A stretch of DNA of 9,172 nucleotides from Sulfuricella sp. (GTDB lineage Bacteria; Pseudomonadota; Gammaproteobacteria; Burkholderiales; Sulfuricellaceae): positions 1 through 9,172 of the forward strand of contig JAIOJM010000218.1 of NCBI GenBank assembly GCA_019911785.1, in the 5' to 3' direction. The position numbers and the translations under genes are program-made. The notes under the pieces were generated by a model. That model worked only from the letters and a program-made list of their open reading frames with translations. It did no database searches and was not told the origin of the DNA. Within the stretch, counting starts at the first letter, position 1. Each line of letters opens with the position of its first letter. This document shows positions 655 through 9,172 of this stretch, one piece after another.

Positions 655-1326
655 ATGGGTATTTTCTTTCCCAACTGCGGGATTCCCTCAGGCCGGTCTG
701 GCGGTCAAGGACTGTCTTTTGCCGGGGTGGCGGCGGGGCACATCGCCATTCTCGGATTGCTGGCGGTCGCCGTGCCCTCAGAGCGACTGGCGGAACTGGC
801 TCGCCCCATAGCCGTGCGCCTGATCGAATTGGCACCTGAGGCGCCGCCTCCGCCCCGGCCAAAACCGCCGCCGCCCCAGCCGAAGTCGGTCAAGCCCGTT
901 CAGGTTCCACCTCCGATACTGGCGGTGGCCAGCCCGGTTGAGTCTCCGGTTGCCGCTTCCTTCACCGTTGCGCCGCAGCCCCCCGCTCCCGTTTCGGCGC
1001 CGGCCATCGTTGCCGCGCCCGCTCCGGCGCCGGCCCTCGTTGCCGCCCGTTTCGACGCCGATTATCTGGACAACCCCAAGCCGGCGTATCCCCATGCCTC
1101 CCGCCGTCTCGGCGAGGAAGGGAAAGTGCTGCTGCGGGTCTTCGTCAGCGCGGATGGCGAGGCGAAACGGGTGGAGGTGAAGGAGTCCAGCGGCTTCCAC
1201 CGCCTCGACCAGGTCGCCCAGGAAACCGTAGCCCGCTGGCGCTTCGTGCCGGCAAAGCGCGGCGACCAGGCCGTGACCGCCTGGGTCGTGGTGCCCATCG
1301 TATTCAGTTTGAAAAACGAAAGTTGA
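655..1326 (+). CDS. tonB: TonB energy-transducing protein
   Basis: This 223-aa TonB-family protein transmits proton-motive-force energy from the ExbB-ExbD motor in the inner membrane to outer-membrane receptors. It has a short N-terminal part, one membrane segment at about residues 19-40 with a His at 29, a Pro-rich periplasm-spanning region (about 60-130, runs of PPPPRPKPPPPQPK type, then Ala/Pro repeats), and the C-terminal TonB domain from about 137 to 220 (PAYPHASRRLGEEGKVLLRV ... TVARWRFVPA). The stop codon TAA at 652-654 directly precedes the ATG, so no upstream extension is possible and later in-frame starts would cut into the membrane segment. There is no purine-rich Shine-Dalgarno sequence before this start, which is unusual. 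exbB begins 10 bp downstream. Its place next to exbBD and a receptor suggests a dedicated rather than housekeeping TonB. Confidence 0.93.
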   Translation: MGIFFPNCGIPSGRSGGQGLSFAGVAAGHIAILGLLAVAVPSERLAELARPIAVRLIELAPEAPPPPRPKPPPPQPKSVKPVQVPPPILAVASPVESPVAASFTVAPQPPAPVSAPAIVAAPAPAPALVAARFDADYLDNPKPAYPHASRRLGEEGKVLLRVFVSADGEAKRVEVKESSGFHRLDQVAQETVARWRFVPAKRGDQAVTAWVVVPIVFSLKNES

Positions 1327-1336
1327 GGATAGAACC

Positions 1337-2068
1337 ATGCCATCCAATCTCGGATTAGCCCATTTCTGGCAACAGGGCGACATCGTCACCCACAGCGTCG
1401 CCATCCTGCTGCTGGCGCTTTCCATCGCCAGTTGGTCCTTGACCATCACCCGCTTTTTCCAGCAACTGCGCTTCAACCGCGCCATGGATGGGGTTTTCGC
1501 CTCTTTCTGGGGAGCGGAAAGCATCGAAGTCGCCCTCGATGAGATCGAGCGGAAAGACCGTACCGGCGTGTTCGCTGGCCTGGCGCAGGCGGGCGTTCAG
1601 GCGGCGCAAGCGCACCAGTGCCATGTGGACCGCGGCATCGGCGCCGGCGTCAACCTCAGCGAAACGGTCACCCGCGCCCTGCGCAGCCAGATCGTCCGCT
1701 CCCAGGTCGGCATCGAATCGGGTTTGACCTTTCTCGCCTCCGTCGGCGCCACCGCGCCCTTCATCGGGCTCTTCGGCACCGTCTGGGGGATATACCACGC
1801 CCTGGTCGCCCTATCCGGCGCCACCCAGGTGGTGCTCGACAAAGTGGCCGGGCCGGTGGGCGAGGCGCTGATCATGACCGCAGCCGGCCTGTTCGTCGCC
1901 ATTCCCGCCGTGCTGGCCTACAACGCGCTGACCCGCGCCAACCGGCTGATCTTCGCCCAGCTCGACGGCTTCGCCCACGACCTCCATGCCTACCTGACCA
2001 CCGGCGTGCACCTGCCTGCCGTCACCGGACAAGCCGCCTCGGCGCGCCTGGTTCCGGTTCCGGCCTGA
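1337..2068 (+). CDS. exbB: ExbB/TolQ-family proton-channel protein
   Basis: This 243-aa inner-membrane protein is the pentameric stator of the TonB motor. Three membrane segments fit the family: about residues 18-38, 128-152 (containing the conserved stretch ATAPFIGLFGTVWGI) and 174-197 (EALIMTAAGLFVAIPAVLAY), with the usual cytoplasmic loop of about 90 residues between the first two. The length is normal for ExbB. The purine-rich GAGGATAGA before ATG 1337 overlaps the tonB stop region and serves as ribosome binding site. The gene is flanked by tonB (10-bp gap) and exbD (9-bp gap), the standard module order. TolQ is the alternative within the superfamily, but with TonB upstream and a TonB-dependent receptor downstream ExbB is much more likely. 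Confidence 0.94.
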   Translation: MPSNLGLAHFWQQGDIVTHSVAILLLALSIASWSLTITRFFQQLRFNRAMDGVFASFWGAESIEVALDEIERKDRTGVFAGLAQAGVQAAQAHQCHVDRGIGAGVNLSETVTRALRSQIVRSQVGIESGLTFLASVGATAPFIGLFGTVWGIYHALVALSGATQVVLDKVAGPVGEALIMTAAGLFVAIPAVLAYNALTRANRLIFAQLDGFAHDLHAYLTTGVHLPAVTGQAASARLVPVPA

Positions 2069-2077
2069 GGAGCGGAC

Positions 2078-2488
2078 ATGGCCTTCGGTTCCTTTGAAAG
2101 CGGCGGCAGCACCCAGCCCATGGCCGAAATCAACACCACGCCCCTGGTGGACGTGATGCTGGTGCTGCTGGTCATTTTCATCATCACCGCGCCGCTGTTT
2201 CACCAGGCGGTGCCCATCGATCTGCCGCGCGTGGACTCGACCAAGCTCGACGACAAGCCCATTGTCGTCAGGCTGGCGCTGGATGGCCAGGGCGGCCTGT
2301 TTCTCGACGGCGTCCCGACGAGCCGTGAGGGAGTTCATGCGCGCCTCGCCGAACTGGCCCCGTCGCAGCCGGAACTTCACCTGCGCGCCGACCGGATCAC
2401 GCCCTATGAAAAAGTGGCCGACATCCTCGCCGTGGCGCAACGGGCCGGGGTGATGAAGATTGCCTTTGTTACCGAAGCCGCCCGATAG
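2078..2488 (+). CDS. exbD: ExbD/TolR-family motor protein
   Basis: This 136-aa protein has one membrane segment (about residues 22-42, TPLVDVMLVLLVIFIITAPL) preceded by the family signature AEINTTPLVD. Asp25 sits at the start of the segment and corresponds to the essential proton-carrying aspartate of ExbD. The periplasmic domain follows (about 45-136) and includes the typical LHLRAD and YEKVADILAVAQRAG motifs. GAGGAG upstream of ATG 2078 overlaps the exbB stop codon and suggests coupled translation. The length is that of a complete ExbD. The gap to the receptor gene is 55 bp and contains only a 4-bp hairpin (GCCCGAAGGGC, 2491-2501) without a T-run, so transcription probably continues. Confidence 0.95.
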   Translation: MAFGSFESGGSTQPMAEINTTPLVDVMLVLLVIFIITAPLFHQAVPIDLPRVDSTKLDDKPIVVRLALDGQGGLFLDGVPTSREGVHARLAELAPSQPELHLRADRITPYEKVADILAVAQRAGVMKIAFVTEAAR

Positions 2489-2543
2489 CCGCCCGAAGGG
2501 CATCCACGAAACCCAATTCAACCCAGAGATGGAGTCAAACACC

Positions 2544-4850
2544 ATGAGTCGCAAACCCAATGTCCTTGCCCCTGTCGGCGTCCGCCGCCCGCTGTCCGTA
2601 GCTGTCGCGGCTGCGCTCGGCATCATCTATGCCAGCGGCGTACTTGCCGAGGAAAAGGATGTCCAGCTCAAGGAGGTGGCCGTCTCGGCGGGGACCGACA
2701 AGCCGGTTCAGCAGCGTACCGAACTGGGCAAGCTGACCGAATACACACCGATCTCCGGCGCAGTGGTGGATCGGGAGGAAATCGAACACTTGCAATTGGT
2801 GAACAACCTGCTGGAACTCGGCAAGCGGGTGCCCGGCATCAGCATGGTGCGCAACATGCGCATTCCCGAGGGCGGCAAGAATTACACCGAGAACCGCGTC
2901 GATGGCATGCGCGTTTCTGCGACCTCGAACACTTCCCTGCTCGACGAAATCGATGGCTCGAATCTGGAGCGCATCGAAGTCATTACCGGTCCCGGTTCCG
3001 CGCTCTATGGCAGCGGCGCGCTGGGCGGCACCATCAGTGTCTTTACGCGCCAACCGCCGAAAGGCCTTGAGGCAAAGCTCTCTCAGGAAGCCGGCAGTTG
3101 GGGTTTTGCCCGCACCCAGGGCAACATCGGCAAATCGACGGAAGACGGCCGCTTCGGTTTTCTCTTCAACGCCAGCACCATGGATAACGACGGCTGGCGC
3201 AAGAATATGGTCACTGGCGGCCAGAATGCCGCCGAAGAACACAAGGACGGCCTTGCCTTGCGAGCATTGATCCGCCCGACGGATTCGACCAAGTTGACGC
3301 TGGGCGTGGATCGCTTGAAATATGAATACCAACTGGCCGGAGCAATTCCGCTGAACGCGACTGAAGCGGCCAAGCTGAAAAACGCGAGCATTAACGGCAC
3401 CTCGCTACGAAGCGTGTACTGGGACAAGGACTGGCAATCGACCGTGGCCGGAACCAATGGCCGGGCCATCAACGACTACGAGACCTACTCGGCGCACCTT
3501 CAGCAACTGGTCGGCTCGCGCGGCGAATTCAGCCTTGCCTTCTCACAGCGCACCGATGACGGGCGGGCTTATGGCGCTGCCGGCTCAGGAGGGAGCAGAA
3601 GCGTGATTTGCGACAATGTCACCGTAACCTGCGCCACCTACAACACCGGGTCAACGGCATCGACCAACACCCTCAAGAAGAACGATGTCGTCATGCAATC
3701 GACCCGGCCGATGTATCGACAGGAATTCGAACTAGCCAAATCTACCTTGTATCTGGGGATGGAACTGATCGATGTCACGACAGACGCAGCGACTTATAAC
3801 AACAGCTTTACGGCGGCACAAGCGCAAACCGGGATGTGGGGAGTCGGGACGATGACCTCCACCGGAAAGGGGTCGGTCGCCAACGAGAAAAATTCCACTC
3901 CCTTCGTGCATTTTGAGTTTTCCCCTCTCGACAAGCTGCGCCTACATATCGGCGAGCGCTTCGACAAGATCACCTACTCGACCGACGACCGGACGACGGC
4001 GAACAAGGATGTCGAGAAAACGTACGAAAAAAATATATTGAAAAGCGGGGTGACCTACGAGCTAACCAACGGCCACCTGGTCTGGGGCAGCCTGGCTGAA
4101 ACCTTCAATGCGCCCGCGATTTCCACCTTGCTCGATAGCGCCGCGAAGGGCACCGCCGGCAATACGATCGGCGCAGAACTGAAGCCCGAGGAATCGCTGA
4201 CCAAGGAAATCGGCCTCCGCGGCCGTTTCGATAACGTCGGCCTGCATTACGATGTCGCCCTGTATCACACTTACAACCAGGGTTTCATCGTCGGCCGCGA
4301 CTGTACTGCGGCAGAAAGGACCGCCCTGAACGCCGGCGCCGCCTGCTCTATCAACGAGAACGCTGGCGGATTGACGGCCAAGGGACTGGAGTCGATGTTT
4401 ACCTGGTCGGCGACCCGCTGGCTGGATCTCGGCGCTACCTATACCAACGCGCGGGCTTACTACAACAGCTACAAGACGAAGACGGTGGACTATAGCGGCA
4501 ACTCCTATCAGGCGATGCCCATGCAGCGGCTGAACCTGCGCGTCGCGGTGAAACCGGCCCCTGGGTGGCTGGTTGAACTTGAGGGCGACCACATTGCGAG
4601 TTATTTCGTTAATACCGAGAATTCAGGCACTTATTCCCGCCCCGACCTCTACAACTTGCGCGCCAGCTACCGCAGCAAGGACTGGTCGTTCTGGCTGCAT
4701 GCACTGAACCTCACCGACCAGAAATATGTCACCCGCGCCGGTTACTCGACGATCGCCGGGGTAAGTGTTCTGGCCGCCTCCGCCGGGCAGGGCAATAGCG
4801 GCACCTACACCCCGCTGACCCTGCGCGCCGGCGTTTCCTACAGGTTCTGA
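2544..4850 (+). CDS. TonB-dependent outer-membrane receptor, substrate unknown
   Basis: This 768-aa beta-barrel receptor imports a ligand across the outer membrane using TonB energy. The start at 2544 is preferred because GGAG (2531-2534) lies 9 bases before it and it yields a clean signal peptide (residues 1-35, cleavage after GVLA). An in-frame start at 2460 would overlap exbD and add 28 non-signal residues. A TonB-box-like stretch (KEVAVSA, about 44-49) is followed by the plug domain to about 170 (GKRVPGISM, ENRVDGMRV, LERIEVITGPGSALYGSGAL), then the barrel, ending in the terminal Phe motif GVSYRF. Four cysteines lie in two close pairs (356/363 and 587/601), probably in surface loops. No ligand-specific motif (haem FRAP/NPNL or a clear siderophore signature) was recognised. 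The next gene begins 5 bp after the stop, indicating an operon. Confidence 0.92.
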   Translation: MSRKPNVLAPVGVRRPLSVAVAAALGIIYASGVLAEEKDVQLKEVAVSAGTDKPVQQRTELGKLTEYTPISGAVVDREEIEHLQLVNNLLELGKRVPGISMVRNMRIPEGGKNYTENRVDGMRVSATSNTSLLDEIDGSNLERIEVITGPGSALYGSGALGGTISVFTRQPPKGLEAKLSQEAGSWGFARTQGNIGKSTEDGRFGFLFNASTMDNDGWRKNMVTGGQNAAEEHKDGLALRALIRPTDSTKLTLGVDRLKYEYQLAGAIPLNATEAAKLKNASINGTSLRSVYWDKDWQSTVAGTNGRAINDYETYSAHLQQLVGSRGEFSLAFSQRTDDGRAYGAAGSGGSRSVICDNVTVTCATYNTGSTASTNTLKKNDVVMQSTRPMYRQEFELAKSTLYLGMELIDVTTDAATYNNSFTAAQAQTGMWGVGTMTSTGKGSVANEKNSTPFVHFEFSPLDKLRLHIGERFDKITYSTDDRTTANKDVEKTYEKNILKSGVTYELTNGHLVWGSLAETFNAPAISTLLDSAAKGTAGNTIGAELKPEESLTKEIGLRGRFDNVGLHYDVALYHTYNQGFIVGRDCTAAERTALNAGAACSINENAGGLTAKGLESMFTWSATRWLDLGATYTNARAYYNSYKTKTVDYSGNSYQAMPMQRLNLRVAVKPAPGWLVELEGDHIASYFVNTENSGTYSRPDLYNLRASYRSKDWSFWLHALNLTDQKYVTRAGYSTIAGVSVLAASAGQGNSGTYTPLTLRAGVSYRF

Positions 4851-4855
4851 CGATC

Positions 4856-6262
4856 ATGAGCATTCTGTCGCGTTATTGTTTGGCTGGGCTCCTGGTCCTG
4901 TTGGCGGCAGGCGCCGCCTCGGCGCAGGACGCGCCGGAAGAACGGCGCACCCGGCAAGGGAGCGGCGAATATGCAGGGCCGCGCCCGCCGGAGAACGCGA
5001 CGCCGGAGGAGCGTCGCGCATTTTGGCAAAAACGGTCCGCCGAACGCGCCAAGGCAGAGGAGAGCGGCGCGTCGGCGGCCGGTCAAGTCGCCACGCCGGC
5101 GCAAGCCGGCGGCAAGCCGGAAGAGGCCAGGCCGGGCAGCGGGCGTCCCAGCGAAGCCCAGATCGCCGAGTGGCAAGCCAAGCGCGAGGCACGGGATGGC
5201 AAGCCCGCCGCTCCTGTCTCCGGGCATCGGCATGGCGGCGCGCCAGACAAAGCGGCGACCGGCAAGCCCGAGGAGAGCGCCCGGGGGGGTGGTCGGCCCG
5301 GTGGCATGGGGATGCGCGGCGGCGGAGCAGTCTGGCTTTCGGACTCGCCACCGATGCGCGGCGACGGCACGCGCCCGGCAGGCAGTCGCGGTGGGGGCAT
5401 GGGCGGCATGGCCATGGGCGGCGAGCGTAGCGGCCCGCCGGTCAAACGCCTGTGGCTGCGCAGTGGCGCCGATCCTCAGAAGTCATCGTTTTACCGCGAG
5501 GAGCCCGATGCGGCGCCGGAAATTCTCCTCGTTACGCCGCAAGGCAAGCCGGATGGCGAACCTCTGCCGCCCGCCGCCGAAGGCCAGCGTAACCTGAGCT
5601 TCGAAATGCCGGCGCAGGGCTTCTACCGGCTGTATGTCACCACCCGCAAGCTTCAGGGGGATACGCTGAGCGTCAGCGTCGCCAAGGCCGAGGTCGGTAA
5701 TTTTGGCCATGACGGCGACGAAGAGGAGCGCGACCGGGCCATGAAAGCGTCCCGCGTGCTGGAGAATGCCGCGATCGAGATCGTCCGCGAACGCCAGGAC
5801 AAGGAGGGACCTTTCGCCCAGATCAGATCGGGCACGGACCAGTCCTTCATCGTCCTGCAGAAGGGCCTGCCGGCAGCGGGCGCGCGGGTGCGCTTCGTCA
5901 GCCATCAGGGCTGGGTCAAGGAAGCGGTGAGCGACGAGCAGGGCCGCGTCAGCTTCCAGGTGATCCGGGACTACTTCCCGCCCTGGGACGAGTTCCAGAA
6001 GCGATTCAAGGCGACTTACCTGGTCATCGCCGAGGCCAATGCCGCCGAAGCCGGCAACTACAAGGACCAGCCCTATACCGGCGTGCGCTATCAGGCCACC
6101 CTGGCCGGCAGCTACTACCCCTCGCCCGACGATTACCGCTCCTACGCCTGGGGTCTCGGCGTGGGTCTGCTCGCGGTGCTGTTCAGCGGCGTCGCCGTCT
6201 ACCTCTACCGCCGCCGCCGGCTGAAGCCTTTCCAGGAGGTGCGCTTCGATGAAAAGTCTTAA
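4856..6262 (+). CDS. Secreted, C-terminally anchored DUF4198-like protein with repeated Gly/Met-rich region
   Basis: This 468-aa protein is exported and probably stays fixed in the inner membrane facing the periplasm. Residues 1-23 form a signal peptide (cleavage near ASA/QDAP). Residues 25-195 are low-complexity, rich in Ala, Gly, Pro, Arg and Glu, and contain two imperfect repeats of about 50 residues: a WQxKR-type helix (51-64 and 100-113) followed by GKPEE...GRP (86-98 and 136-148). Met/Gly clusters occur at 151-157 and 182-189, and there is a GHRHGG at 123-128. Residues about 196-425 form the folded part and end in a conserved-looking block (GARVRFVSHQGWVKEAVSD, RDYFPPWDEF) of the DUF4198 type, domains often linked to metal uptake. 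A transmembrane helix at about 431-451 and a basic tail close the protein. The only ribosome-binding candidate is a weak AGG at 4842. Function is unknown; metal or ligand handling next to the receptor is inference. Confidence 0.75.
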   Translation: MSILSRYCLAGLLVLLAAGAASAQDAPEERRTRQGSGEYAGPRPPENATPEERRAFWQKRSAERAKAEESGASAAGQVATPAQAGGKPEEARPGSGRPSEAQIAEWQAKREARDGKPAAPVSGHRHGGAPDKAATGKPEESARGGGRPGGMGMRGGGAVWLSDSPPMRGDGTRPAGSRGGGMGGMAMGGERSGPPVKRLWLRSGADPQKSSFYREEPDAAPEILLVTPQGKPDGEPLPPAAEGQRNLSFEMPAQGFYRLYVTTRKLQGDTLSVSVAKAEVGNFGHDGDEEERDRAMKASRVLENAAIEIVRERQDKEGPFAQIRSGTDQSFIVLQKGLPAAGARVRFVSHQGWVKEAVSDEQGRVSFQVIRDYFPPWDEFQKRFKATYLVIAEANAAEAGNYKDQPYTGVRYQATLAGSYYPSPDDYRSYAWGLGVGLLAVLFSGVAVYLYRRRRLKPFQEVRFDEKS

Positions 6263-7235
6263 GGATGCCGTCGATCGGGCCGATCTCAACCGCTTCCGTT
6301 TCTGGCTCCAGCTGGCGATGTTCGCGCTGTTGGTCTATGGAGGCTATCTGGCCATCGACCTGGGTTCCCGCCTGCCGATGTTCTCCTGCGGCTTCAACCA
6401 GGAGGGCAGGGCCGGCGTCTGTTACCTGCTGCCGCTCCAGCATCAGTTGGCCCGACCGTGGCCCGCGCTCTTCGGCTACGCGGGCCTGAGCGTCCTCACC
6501 GGCTTCGGCATCTTCTTTCTCTGGTTCATTGCGCTCAACAAGGGCTGGTGCGGTTATGTCTGCCCCCTGGGCACCATCCAGGACTGGATCACGGCCTTGC
6601 GTCGCCGGCTCGGCGTGCGCTACAGCCGCTACACCCAGGGCCAGTTCCGCCAGCTCAGCCGGATCAAGTACCTCCTGCTCGCCCTGATGATCCTGATCCC
6701 GCTCGGAATCGGCGGCGGCTGGTTCTCCCGCGACATGGGCACGCCCTTTTGTCTGATCTGTCCGGGACGGATGATCCTGCCCATGTTTACTGGCGATTTT
6801 TCGCACTTTACCATCGATTTCTCCAGCAAGACGGCACTGGTCATGACAGCGCTTGGAATGGGCATCACCGGCCTGTTCCTGGCCGGGGCATTCGTCAAGA
6901 AGCGCTTCTTCTGCTTCTTCTGCCCGATGAGCGCACTTCACTACCTGATCTCCAAGCCGGCGCTGCTCAAGCTCAAGAAGGATGGCGACAAATGCACCCG
7001 CTGCGGCGATTGCTACACCGTCTGCGACATGGAGATCAAGGAAATCGCCGACGACATCAAGACCAGGGACATCATGATGGACGACTGCATCCTGTGCCTG
7101 AAATGCGTTGCCGCCTGCCCCGAGCCGGGGGCATTGAAGGTCAATTTCGCCAGCGTCACCTTCTTCGAATCGACGGAGGAAGGTTTTCTCAAGCGTACCC
7201 AAAAAGGATTGAAAGCCGAGCGCCATGAGCACTAA
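6249..7235 (+). CDS. NapH/NosR-like membrane 4Fe-4S electron-transfer protein
   Basis: This 328-aa polytopic protein probably passes electrons between the membrane and a cytoplasmic iron-sulfur acceptor. Membrane segments lie at about residues 17-38, 77-96, 139-157 and 195-215. CGYVCP (101-106), CLICP (168-172) and CFFCP (222-226) are the membrane-edge cysteine motifs of the NapH/NosR/CcoG-type family. Two classical [4Fe-4S] ferredoxin motifs follow: Cys 249/252/255/259 and Cys 280/283/286/290 (the latter ending in CPEP). Two further cysteines (47 and 58) lie in the loop after the first helix. The start overlaps the upstream gene by 14 bp and has a strong AGGAGGT (6234-6240) 8 bases before it. 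The stop overlaps the next gene by 11 bp. There are no other nap or nos genes nearby, so a nitrate or N2O role is unlikely. Serving the downstream reductase and its activator as electron donor is a plausible inference. Confidence 0.85.
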   Translation: MKSLKDAVDRADLNRFRFWLQLAMFALLVYGGYLAIDLGSRLPMFSCGFNQEGRAGVCYLLPLQHQLARPWPALFGYAGLSVLTGFGIFFLWFIALNKGWCGYVCPLGTIQDWITALRRRLGVRYSRYTQGQFRQLSRIKYLLLALMILIPLGIGGGWFSRDMGTPFCLICPGRMILPMFTGDFSHFTIDFSSKTALVMTALGMGITGLFLAGAFVKKRFFCFFCPMSALHYLISKPALLKLKKDGDKCTRCGDCYTVCDMEIKEIADDIKTRDIMMDDCILCLKCVAACPEPGALKVNFASVTFFESTEEGFLKRTQKGLKAERHEH

Positions 7236-8511
7236 ACCCACCACTGCGGCAATCGCGCCCATCCCTTACAACCGCAGCCGCCAGGCGCGGGAGGCGGAGA
7301 CCGTGCTCGACCACATCACCGACGATTTCGACGATAACCCGGCGGCGATGGCCTATTTCTACGATCTATTCCGGCGCACCTATTGCCAGGGCGAATCTAT
7401 CGAACGGGAGGGCGTACGGGTGGGCACCACCTGCATCCATGCCCCGGAGGAATTGATCTACGCCATGGGGGCAACGCCGGTGCGCCTGTGCAACGGCTCC
7501 TACCACTACGACCAGGTTGGCGCCGATTTCATGCCGGCCAAGTCCTGTTCCCTGGTCAAGGCCACCCTCGGCATGTTGAGTTCCGAGAACGCGATTCCCA
7601 AAGTCGGCAAGCTGGATTTGATCGTCAACCCCACCACCTGCGACCAGAAGAAAAAAGCCAGCGCCATGATGGTGGGCATGGGGCATACCGTTTACAACCT
7701 GGAATTGCCGCCGGCCAAGGAAAGCGAGCAGGCCAGGCTTTACTGGCAGCGGTCGGTGCGCGAGTTCGTCCAGCAATTGCGCCAGCTCACCGGCAAGAAA
7801 CTCACCCGCAAGAACCTGATGGCAGCCATGGCCAGGACCAGCCGCGCCCAAGCCGCCTTCCGCACCCTGCACAACTTCCGCCGCAAGGCGCCCTCGCTGG
7901 TTCTCGGCAAGGACGTGTTCCTGATTACCAACGCTTATTTCTTCGACGACATCGAGCGCTGGACCGAGGCGGTGGAAACGCTCAACGCCGAACTGGCGCA
8001 GCGCGAGAAGGATGGTTTTTGCGCCGCACAGAAGAAGGCGCCGCGCATTCTTTTTACTGGTTCGCCGCCGATCTTCCCCAATCTCAAGTTGCCACTGCTG
8101 ATCGAGGAATCCGGCGGTGTGGTGGTGGCGGACGAGACCTGCTCCGCCAACCGCATGCTCTACGACATGACCGCCGTGGACGAGTGGCTGGTCAACGACA
8201 TGGTGGACAGCTTGGCGGACAAGTACCTCAAGCCCTGCACCTGCCCGATTTTCACCCACAACGACGACCGCCTCCGCCGCCTGGTGGAACTGGCCAAGAG
8301 CTTCGCCGTGGATGGCGTGGTGTATCAGGCTTTCTCCGGTTGCCAGGTGTACGAGATGGAGCAGAGGAGCGTGGCGGAAACCCTCAACAAAGAGGGCATC
8401 GCCATGCTCTACATCGAAACCGACTACAGCCCGGACGACATGGGGCAGCTCACAACCCGGATCGAGGCGTTCCTGGAATCCCTGAAAACCCGCAAGAAAA
8501 ACCGCGCATGA
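7225..8511 (+). CDS. Double-cubane-cluster-type reductase (2-hydroxyacyl-CoA dehydratase family)
   Basis: This 428-aa cytoplasmic protein belongs to the HgdB/BcrB/BcrC/FldC superfamily, whose members receive very low-potential electrons from an ATP-hydrolysing activator. The single chain, with cysteine motifs in both halves, fits the double-cubane-cluster protein type, where one polypeptide binds an [8Fe-9S] double cubane. Candidate ligands are C70 (TTCIHAPEELIYAMGA), C108 (PAKSCSLVK) and C139 (PTTCDQKKK) in the N-terminal half, and C306 (DETCSANR), C338/C340 (PCTCP) and C373 (FSGCQVYEMEQR) in the C-terminal half; C54, C89 and C266 are also present. No second dehydratase subunit is adjacent, which argues against a classical two-subunit 2-hydroxyacyl-CoA dehydratase or a four-subunit benzoyl-CoA reductase. 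The ATG overlaps the preceding gene by 11 bp with only a weak ribosome binding site, suggesting translational coupling. The activator gene lies downstream. Family is firm; substrate is unknown. Confidence 0.87.
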   Translation: MSTKPTTAAIAPIPYNRSRQAREAETVLDHITDDFDDNPAAMAYFYDLFRRTYCQGESIEREGVRVGTTCIHAPEELIYAMGATPVRLCNGSYHYDQVGADFMPAKSCSLVKATLGMLSSENAIPKVGKLDLIVNPTTCDQKKKASAMMVGMGHTVYNLELPPAKESEQARLYWQRSVREFVQQLRQLTGKKLTRKNLMAAMARTSRAQAAFRTLHNFRRKAPSLVLGKDVFLITNAYFFDDIERWTEAVETLNAELAQREKDGFCAAQKKAPRILFTGSPPIFPNLKLPLLIEESGGVVVADETCSANRMLYDMTAVDEWLVNDMVDSLADKYLKPCTCPIFTHNDDRLRRLVELAKSFAVDGVVYQAFSGCQVYEMEQRSVAETLNKEGIAMLYIETDYSPDDMGQLTTRIEAFLESLKTRKKNRA

Positions 8512-8513
8512 AC

Positions 8514-8677
8514 CTGAAAAACTCACTTTATCCACAGATGAACACAGATTTACACAGATTTTCAAAGACGGGCTTTCATTACCTGCATCACCCAGGAGGT
8601 GAGTCGAGGGCATTCGTCAATATGCTGATTCTGCGTGATCTTATCTGTGTTCATCTGCGCCATCTGAGGATTATTGG
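8514..8677. repeat. Inverted 'acagat' repeat insert between reductase and activase genes
   Basis: This non-coding stretch separates two genes that would otherwise be tightly coupled. The left arm carries three ACAGAT units at 8534, 8544 and 8554, an exact 10-base period. The right arm carries the complement, with ATCTG units at 8643, 8653 and 8662. The 15-mer CAGATGAACACAGAT (8535-8549) is the exact reverse complement of 8643-8657, and similarity continues imperfectly inward. Similar acagat-type intergenic repeats are, from memory, common and dispersed in proteobacterial genomes. The flanks share the 6-mer ATGAAC (8508-8513 and 8678-8683), which could be a target-site duplication or a coincidence around start codons. 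There is no transposase. GAGG at 8666-8669, just inside the right end, supplies the ribosome binding site of the activase gene. Confidence 0.6.
8535..8657. repeat. 15-bp perfect inverted repeat inside the insert
   Basis: CAGATGAACACAGAT at 8535-8549 and its exact reverse complement at 8643-8657 enclose 93 bases. In RNA this would form a long imperfect hairpin between the reductase and activase coding regions. Such a structure could stabilise the upstream message or lower downstream expression. It lacks a terminal T-run, so it is not a typical intrinsic terminator. Confidence 0.6.
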
Positions 8678-9172
8678 ATGAACTACTTTGCAGGACTGGA
8701 TATTGGCTCTACCGCCATCAAGGTAGCCCTGGTGGACGAGGAAGGAAAGATTGCCGGCGTCCACGTCTCTTCTTCCGGCAGCCTGTTCCACAAGAACGCC
8801 AAGGAGGCCCTGCAGAACCTGCTGGCCCAACTGGGCATCGCCAAAGACGATGTGCGCTACCTGATCGCCACCGGCTACGGCCGCAAGCTGTTCAAGGAGG
8901 CCGACGACTCCATCAGCGAAATCACCGCCAACGCCATCGGTGCCCATGAAGCGGGCAAGGCCTTCGGCGGCGTGCGCACCATTATCAACATCGGCGGCCA
9001 GGATTCCAAGGCAATCCAGATCGACGACACGGGCAACGTGTCCAACTTCGCCATGAACGACAAATGCGCCGCCGGCACCGGGCGCTTCCTCGACGTGGCG
9101 GCGCGTAACTTGGACATCGACCTGGAGGAACTGGGCGATTACCACTTCAACGGCAAGGGCGCCCCATTGACA
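8678..9172 (+). CDS. Acyl-CoA dehydratase activase-type ATPase (BadF/BadG/HgdC family), 5' part only
   Basis: These are the N-terminal 165 residues of an ASKHA-fold ATPase that couples ATP hydrolysis to one-electron transfer into a double-cubane or dehydratase partner. The frame stays open to the window end. Visible motifs are the phosphate-binding GLDIGSTAIKVAL near the start, the loop ATGYGRKLF, SEITANAIGA, the second nucleotide motif NIGGQDSKAIQ, and NDKCAAGTGRFLDVAA, whose Cys130 should be one of the two cysteines holding the [4Fe-4S] cluster at the dimer interface. The second ligand, expected about 39 residues later, lies beyond the window. TGAGGA at 8665-8670 gives a ribosome binding site 7 bases before the ATG. 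It follows the double-cubane-type reductase gene, its expected partner. The ATG start is inferred from this site and from family N-termini. Confidence 0.93.
   Translation, partial: MNYFAGLDIGSTAIKVALVDEEGKIAGVHVSSSGSLFHKNAKEALQNLLAQLGIAKDDVRYLIATGYGRKLFKEADDSISEITANAIGAHEAGKAFGGVRTIINIGGQDSKAIQIDDTGNVSNFAMNDKCAAGTGRFLDVAARNLDIDLEELGDYHFNGKGAPLT

Follow-up and report, generated by a model that had tools for sequence, protein, structure and literature searches.

A reductase of the double-cubane cluster protein (DCCP) family and its ATPase activator are encoded in one row with a TonB-dependent uptake system in a 9,172-nucleotide stretch of Sulfuricella sp. DNA (GenBank assembly GCA_019911785.1, contig JAIOJM010000218.1; this whole stretch is called the window hereafter). 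We find that this arrangement is a real and widely conserved gene cluster, which gives DCCP, an orphan enzyme, a defined partner set that includes an anchored DUF4198-like protein and a NapH-like membrane Fe-S protein. A 2025 paper calls the biological function of DCCPs unknown and describes reduction of acetylene, hydrazine and azide, with unclear relevance (PMC11971306); in a study of Calderihabitans, the DCCP gene was 5.5-fold and the DCCP reductase gene 4.5-fold down under CO (PMC7306483). A first-pass annotation of the window had known of no described pathway with this arrangement, and our literature searches agree, as we found no paper linking a double-cubane protein or a 2-hydroxyglutaryl-CoA dehydratase to TonB uptake genes.

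Eight genes follow one another on the + strand from tonB to the activase, with gaps of 10, 9, 55 and 5 bp, then overlaps of 14 and 11 bp, and a last gap of 166 bp; the order, positions, gaps and overlaps given in the first-pass annotation were all reproduced exactly from the window sequence. The features are as follows.

655..1326, + strand: TonB, 223 aa (PF03544, 1.2e-21).
1337..2068, + strand: ExbB/TolQ-type proton channel, 243 aa (PF01618, 1.6e-30; under the NCBIfam cut-offs for TolQ and ExbB).
2078..2488, + strand: ExbD/TolR-type protein, 136 aa (PF02472, 4.1e-28).
2544..4850, + strand: TonB-dependent outer-membrane receptor, 768 aa counted from the ATG at 2544 (Plug PF07715, 5.1e-14; barrel PF00593, 2.2e-28).
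4856..6262, + strand: anchored periplasmic DUF4198-like protein, 468 aa, with the cytosolic tail RRRRLKPFQEVRFDEKS.
6249..7235, + strand: NapH-like membrane Fe-S protein, 328 aa, four predicted transmembrane (TM) helices, 16 Cys.
7225..8511, + strand: double-cubane cluster reductase (DCCP), 428 aa (NF040772, 366.8 bits; PF06050, 3.1e-99).
8512..8677, no strand: palindromic repeat inserted between the DCCP and activase genes, with 15-bp inverted arms at 8535-8549 and 8643-8657.
8678..9172, + strand: activase (DCCP reductase, BcrAD/BadFG ATPase), truncated 3' by the window end (TIGR00241, 138 bits; PF01869, 5.7e-35).

Conservation was assessed in 61 loci from a genome-collection scan that used words of the window DCCP, so that these loci sample that protein's own clade. 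The order DUF4198-like, NapH-like, DCCP, activase was complete in 54 of them, and in the remaining seven the contig starts inside or just ahead of this core (L041 shows a cut NapH-like match); host names include Thiobacillus, Gallionella, Sideroxydans, Sulfurimonas, Sulfuricurvum, Sulfurovum, Desulfurivibrio and one Bacteroidetes metagenome-assembled genome (MAG). Among isolates, Parasulfuritortus cantonensis has the cluster (L017), and Sulfurimicrobium lacus and Quatrionicoccus australiensis encode a relative of the DUF4198-like protein or of the DCCP. Together with nine Campylobacterota genome stretches, the locus L086 and the window, they make up 72 DCCP-linked records, many of them short, in which tblastn matched the activase in 71, the NapH-like protein in 68, the DUF4198-like protein in 65, the receptor in 55, DsbD_2 in 54, ExbB in 38 and an RND permease in 25. 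Junctions of at most 60 bp separate the DUF4198-like and NapH-like genes in 63 of 64 records, the NapH-like and DCCP genes in 50 of 68 (gene starts being uncertain here) and the DCCP and activase genes in 70 of 77, some canonical ones included. Given the complete cores and the one-to-one genome coupling of DUF4198-like protein and DCCP set out below, a chance neighbourhood of the core genes is ruled out, and the receptor block and the reductase block, which the first-pass annotation had joined in the window, remain neighbours in related genomes. Apparent NapH-DCCP fusions in L011, L013 and L014 (open reading frames, ORFs, of 564-679 aa) were rejected as GC-rich read-through, the NapH-like gene lying in a different frame. 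A Sulfurimonas genome carries a second DUF4198-NapH-DCCP set without an activase match of its own (L067, G013:C38).

The window DCCP scores above the NF040772 cut-off of 350 bits, and the TonB-linked DCCPs straddle that cut-off (321-370 bits in Campylobacterota, 351-385 in Pseudomonadota; 454-501 for full-length canonical proteins). Seven Cys, which we take to be the cluster ligands, are invariant in 17 of 17 aligned DCCPs, TonB-linked and canonical, and are common to the PDB relatives 7yyl and 6eno; the partner ATPase passes its cut-off of 125.4 bits from the 5' part in the window. Against 13 canonical DCCPs, the TonB-linked proteins form one clade (branch support 100/99) spanning Pseudomonadota, Campylobacterota, Thermodesulfobacteriota and Bacteroidota, the last represented by one MAG. 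They thus share with the Carboxydothermus-type DCCP and its reductase the one-subunit reductase, the ATPase activator and the seven conserved Cys, but differ as a separate clade near the family cut-off, with DUF4198-like and NapH-like neighbours wherever the contig allows in the 61 loci. Class I benzoyl-CoA reductases and 2-hydroxyacyl-CoA dehydratases likewise combine the HGD-D family with an ATP-driven activator, whereas the window has a single D-component subunit: no second, paralogous HGD-D subunit is present in the window, whose 3' end cuts the activase gene, and its DCCP reaches only 92.9 bits against the BzdN model, far under the cut-off of 453.8.

Genome controls tie this type of DCCP to the DUF4198-like protein. 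Among 200 Campylobacterota genomes, 35 had an NF040772 match of any kind (only fragments in seven of these), and strong DUF4198-like alignment matches (at least 234 bits; next best 39) occurred in nine, namely G013, G014 (which holds L030), G080, G084, G143, G152, G161, G166 and G172; the same nine carry a TonB-type DCCP. No NapH-like, DUF4198-like, ExbB, ExbD, TonB or DsbD_2 match was found in 15 canonical Campylobacterota DCCP records from 14 genomes, four of these records being only 4.1 kb long and one (L075) cut; one canonical record, L084, showed two weak receptor matches (52 and 45 bits). Five further Campylobacterota genomes with a full-length, canonical-score DCCP had no strong DUF4198-like match anywhere in the genome. 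G001 is the Thiobacillus genome that contains L001; within its family (117 genomes), DUF4198-like protein and TonB-type DCCP were found in the same three (next DUF4198 match 45 bits), and across 398 Pseudomonadota in the same two, G001 and G318, the G318 match of 117 bits being not much above those of cousins lacking DCCP (at most 84 bits). A third Pseudomonadota genome, G465, has a canonical-score DCCP, whose neighbourhood was left out of the comparison. Relatedness among the genomes and records means that these counts do not represent independent events. Short DCCP matches with in-frame stops in the Campylobacterota genomes G142, G148, G115, G171 and G167 look like decayed DCCP genes.

These patterns bear on a rather unlikely explanation, namely that the uptake block and DCCP answer the same metal or redox stress without exchanging electrons, the module supplying a metal while DCCP reduces something else. 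Canonical DCCP genes that stand without such neighbours would fit it, as would the distance correlations of DCCP (0.97 with the activase, 0.79 with the NapH-like protein and 0.56 with the receptor, against 0.89 for the NapH-like/DUF4198-like pair; weak evidence, as these mirror-tree values were obtained without species control), but gene order and overlaps are kept over four phyla, the coupling in genomes is one to one, and the cytosolic signatures described below go with DCCP.

The uptake block also occurs on its own. Receptor, DUF4198-like and NapH-like genes stand together in 15 stretches (L087-L101) of as many Pseudomonadota genomes in which DCCP had no match, accompanied by ExbB, ExbD, TonB and DsbD_2 where the contig allows, and L040 and L059 have an uptake set of this reductase-free type beside their DCCP cluster; the reductase is therefore best regarded as a part added to an existing uptake module. 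Receptors of the 15 cousins share about 45-67% identity with their counterparts in L001, L012 and further DCCP-linked loci, and the window receptor belongs to a different group: it is 32% identical to that of L001, compared with 76-95% for the core proteins, so receptors vary and the core is constant. Both the plug and the barrel domain of the window receptor score above cut-off, and its best NCBIfam model is the siderophore subfamily TIGR01783 (130.7 bits, under the cut-off of 223.5). A DsbD_2 (CcdA-like) protein is encoded beside the core in most relatives, and an RND permease gene follows the activase in many Campylobacterota loci. In L053, MacAB-type exporter genes (12847-15955) lie directly 3' of the DsbD_2 gene, and in L087 a Cys-rich LTXXQ-family protein is encoded between the receptor and the DUF4198-like gene.

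The NapH-like protein may be the link between the two blocks. All 16 of its Cys are invariant in 44 of 44 aligned sequences (38 from DCCP-linked loci and six cousins), and hydropathy predicts four TM helices, in agreement with the helices of a structure model (pLDDT 80). By charge, C47, C58, C168, C171 and H65 are predicted to face the periplasm and the other Cys to lie inside, with C101, C105, C222 and C225 predicted at the cytosolic face and eight in a cytosolic 2[4Fe-4S] domain. NapH, NosH and MauN polyferredoxins have the same CxxxCP-type motifs after TM helices and the same 2[4Fe-4S] domain, to which the window protein adds the four invariant Cys and the His of the outer side; the NosH-like protein of L058 has 12 Cys, without the outer four, and the window protein scores 80 bits against the NapH/MauN model TIGR02163, under its cut-off of 213. 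Matches in a fold search with the model spanned mainly residues 238-307, the ferredoxin domains, so that its membrane part was barely tested. The outer four-Cys site may hold a [4Fe-4S] cluster or bind the imported metal. On the cytosolic side, C259 is followed by Asp in 69 of 70 NapH-like proteins encoded at DCCP-linked loci and by Pro in 15 of 15 from cousins.

Electrons could also flow the other way, from quinol or low-potential carriers through the NapH-like protein to the activase, with DCCP as terminal reductase acting in the cytosol on a small molecule or on the imported ligand, for example a chelator that carries a reducible group such as N-N or isonitrile. The cytosolic ferredoxin domain and the adjoining NapH-like and DCCP genes speak for this direction, which we nevertheless consider not very likely: quinol is much too oxidising unless energy is added, the protein and its periplasmic four-Cys site are kept in modules without DCCP, and no ABC-type inner-membrane importer that could bring a ligand to the cytosol was found among the Pfam matches of the window proteins. 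Because the NapH-like protein is conserved without DCCP, we infer that it is an electron acceptor of DCCP and not only a donor to the activase, and the outer four-Cys site and the lack of an ABC-type importer in the window favour a reduction at the periplasmic face over one of a ligand taken into the cytoplasm. The first-pass proposal of scarce-ligand uptake followed by a very low-potential reduction is thus still the best reading, with the site of reduction shifted towards the periplasmic face and the reductase recast as an add-on.

The DUF4198-like protein is predicted to be periplasmic and anchored. By eye it begins with a signal peptide, which is followed by a Gly-rich linker, a DUF4198-fold domain (about residues 191-424), a C-terminal TM helix and a cytosolic tail. 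Its earlier label holds by predicted fold, since a fold search returned relatives, but not by sequence: it scores 14.8 bits against a Pfam gathering score of 34 (PF10670), this domain is present in 4 of 120 listed relatives, and a PDB sequence search gave one chance match only (E 0.84). The TM anchor and conserved cytosolic tail distinguish it from DUF4198 metal-binding proteins such as Zcp and the nickel-binding IsDUF4198. PepSY/DUF2271/DUF4198 operons such as Caulobacter CCNA_03155-03159, which are proposed to reduce ferric iron in the periplasm, have the same pairing of a membrane redox protein with a DUF4198 partner and are iron-linked (PMC12004947); the window differs in having a NapH-like Fe-S redox part and an ATP-driven reductase, with no PepSY among its Pfam matches. 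The cytosolic tail pattern occurs in 64 of 67 DCCP-linked proteins and 0 of 17 cousins, and its strict form, P[FY]xE, in 55 of 67 and 0 of 17. In 32 of the 72 DCCP-linked records the DUF4198-like part is linked to a polyferredoxin part, and 14 of the 32 have a NosL domain separating the two. In Campylobacterota, the DUF4198-like part comes after a second NapH/NosR-like polyferredoxin part, as a single ORF in L021 and L029 (6237-8993 in L029).

We tentatively propose that the cluster is a TonB-dependent metal-chelate acquisition module, most likely for copper, in which DCCP electrons reduce or release the metal in the periplasm; the overall mechanism is plausible but unproven. The receptor, powered by TonB-ExbB-ExbD, would carry the chelate to the periplasm, where, on the outer side of the inner membrane, the DUF4198-fold domain would hold the metal or pass it on. 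ATP hydrolysis by the cytosolic activase would drive very low-potential electrons into the double-cubane cluster, and DCCP would then reduce the 16-Cys NapH-like protein, acting as a transmembrane Fe-S wire that ends at the periplasmic four-Cys site. This extra driving force would free the metal from strong or varied chelates without chelator-specific enzymes; the DsbD_2 protein could supply a thiol reductant, and the RND or MacAB-type pumps of some relatives may export the empty chelator. A broader version, in which the system is an ATP-driven electron injector whose electrons, at nitrogenase-like potential, cross the wire and reduce TonB-imported chelates whatever their chemistry, is possible but doubtful.

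Copper is weakly favoured as the cargo. A NosL domain is fused into the Campylobacterota form (2.1e-16 in L029), NosL-like genes are present by similarity in L032 and L061, L011 encodes a Sco-like protein (by eye), and in L058 the receptor is closest to a copper model and nos accessory genes adjoin the cluster. The alternative, import of ferric chelates with reduction in the periplasm, where the potential of DCCP would serve the strongest ferric siderophores, seems improbable to us. Strong ferric siderophores require very low reduction potentials, and the siderophore-type receptor scores, though below cut-off, point to iron; the NosL and other copper-type neighbours do not, the genus names of several hosts (Gallionella, Sideroxydans) mark them as Fe(II) oxidisers, and no clear upstream enrichment of Fur boxes was seen in a scan without positive control. 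Iron is also favoured by the DUF4198 protein encoded in the Caulobacter operon, an operon for which periplasmic Fe(III) reduction has been proposed (PMC12004947). The solved structure of the nickel-binding IsDUF4198 speaks for nickel. Among the ligands named in the first-pass annotation, a metal chelate is the best candidate, and a tetrapyrrole or corrinoid finds support only near one alphaproteobacterial DCCP cluster, where a CobN/Mg-chelatase family protein with a signal peptide (by eye) is encoded (L010, 4762-8820), and in L016, a frame of which clusters with it.

Several observations weigh against our proposal. Reduction of Cu(II) to Cu(I) requires no ATP-boosted electrons, so copper and DCCP are a poor match except where the chelate or ligand resists reduction unusually strongly. 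A main copper user, nosZ, is present in just 16 of 27 host genomes tested for the 61 loci, a count by which we rejected an N2O-reductase accessory system. Fur, Zur, NikR and CueR boxes were not clearly enriched in 258 upstream stretches, by a scan that used consensus strings, base-composition shuffles as background and no positive control. Small excesses over shuffled sequence were seen for the mean Fur score of GC-rich cousins (11.00 versus 10.41) and for CueR-like boxes in GC-rich DCCP-linked stretches (2.0% versus 0.6%), and FNR-like boxes stood at 14.9% versus 8.7% in GC-rich DCCP-linked stretches, 21.8% versus 9.8% in cousins and 38.5% versus 39.8% in AT-rich stretches. Seventeen of the 72 DCCP-linked records had no receptor match; in 13 of these the core lies at most 130 bp from the contig start, but L003, L016, L028 and L044 have 5.9-8.0 kb ahead of the core without a match to the receptor queries, which a distant receptor could escape given receptor diversity. 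The tail pattern was composed after viewing the sequences and allows several alternatives, L086 has DCCP without either the Asp after C259 or the tail, and the signatures that accompany DCCP may reflect descent and not contact.

Two features belong to the window itself. The 166-bp gap holding the palindromic insert is not shared by the nearest relatives, L001 and L053, which lack the insert and in which the DCCP stop overlaps the activase start by 4 bp; six further loci have DCCP-activase gaps of 76 to 396 bp. Just upstream of tonB, positions 2-349 encode the 3' part of a RegA/ActR/PrrA-type redox response regulator (NF033791, 132 bits, fragment).

With this conserved partner set, the question of DCCP function can be put to the test in a concrete context, that of an uptake module that has a membrane Fe-S protein of its own. 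If chemistry at the periplasmic face is indeed powered by DCCP, ATP would serve to export very low-potential electrons from the cytoplasm, and the module would be an overlooked component of metal acquisition in sulfur- and iron-oxidising bacteria. Should the electron-injector version prove true, DCCP would have its first physiological role, and a new means of investing ATP in periplasmic chemistry would be known.

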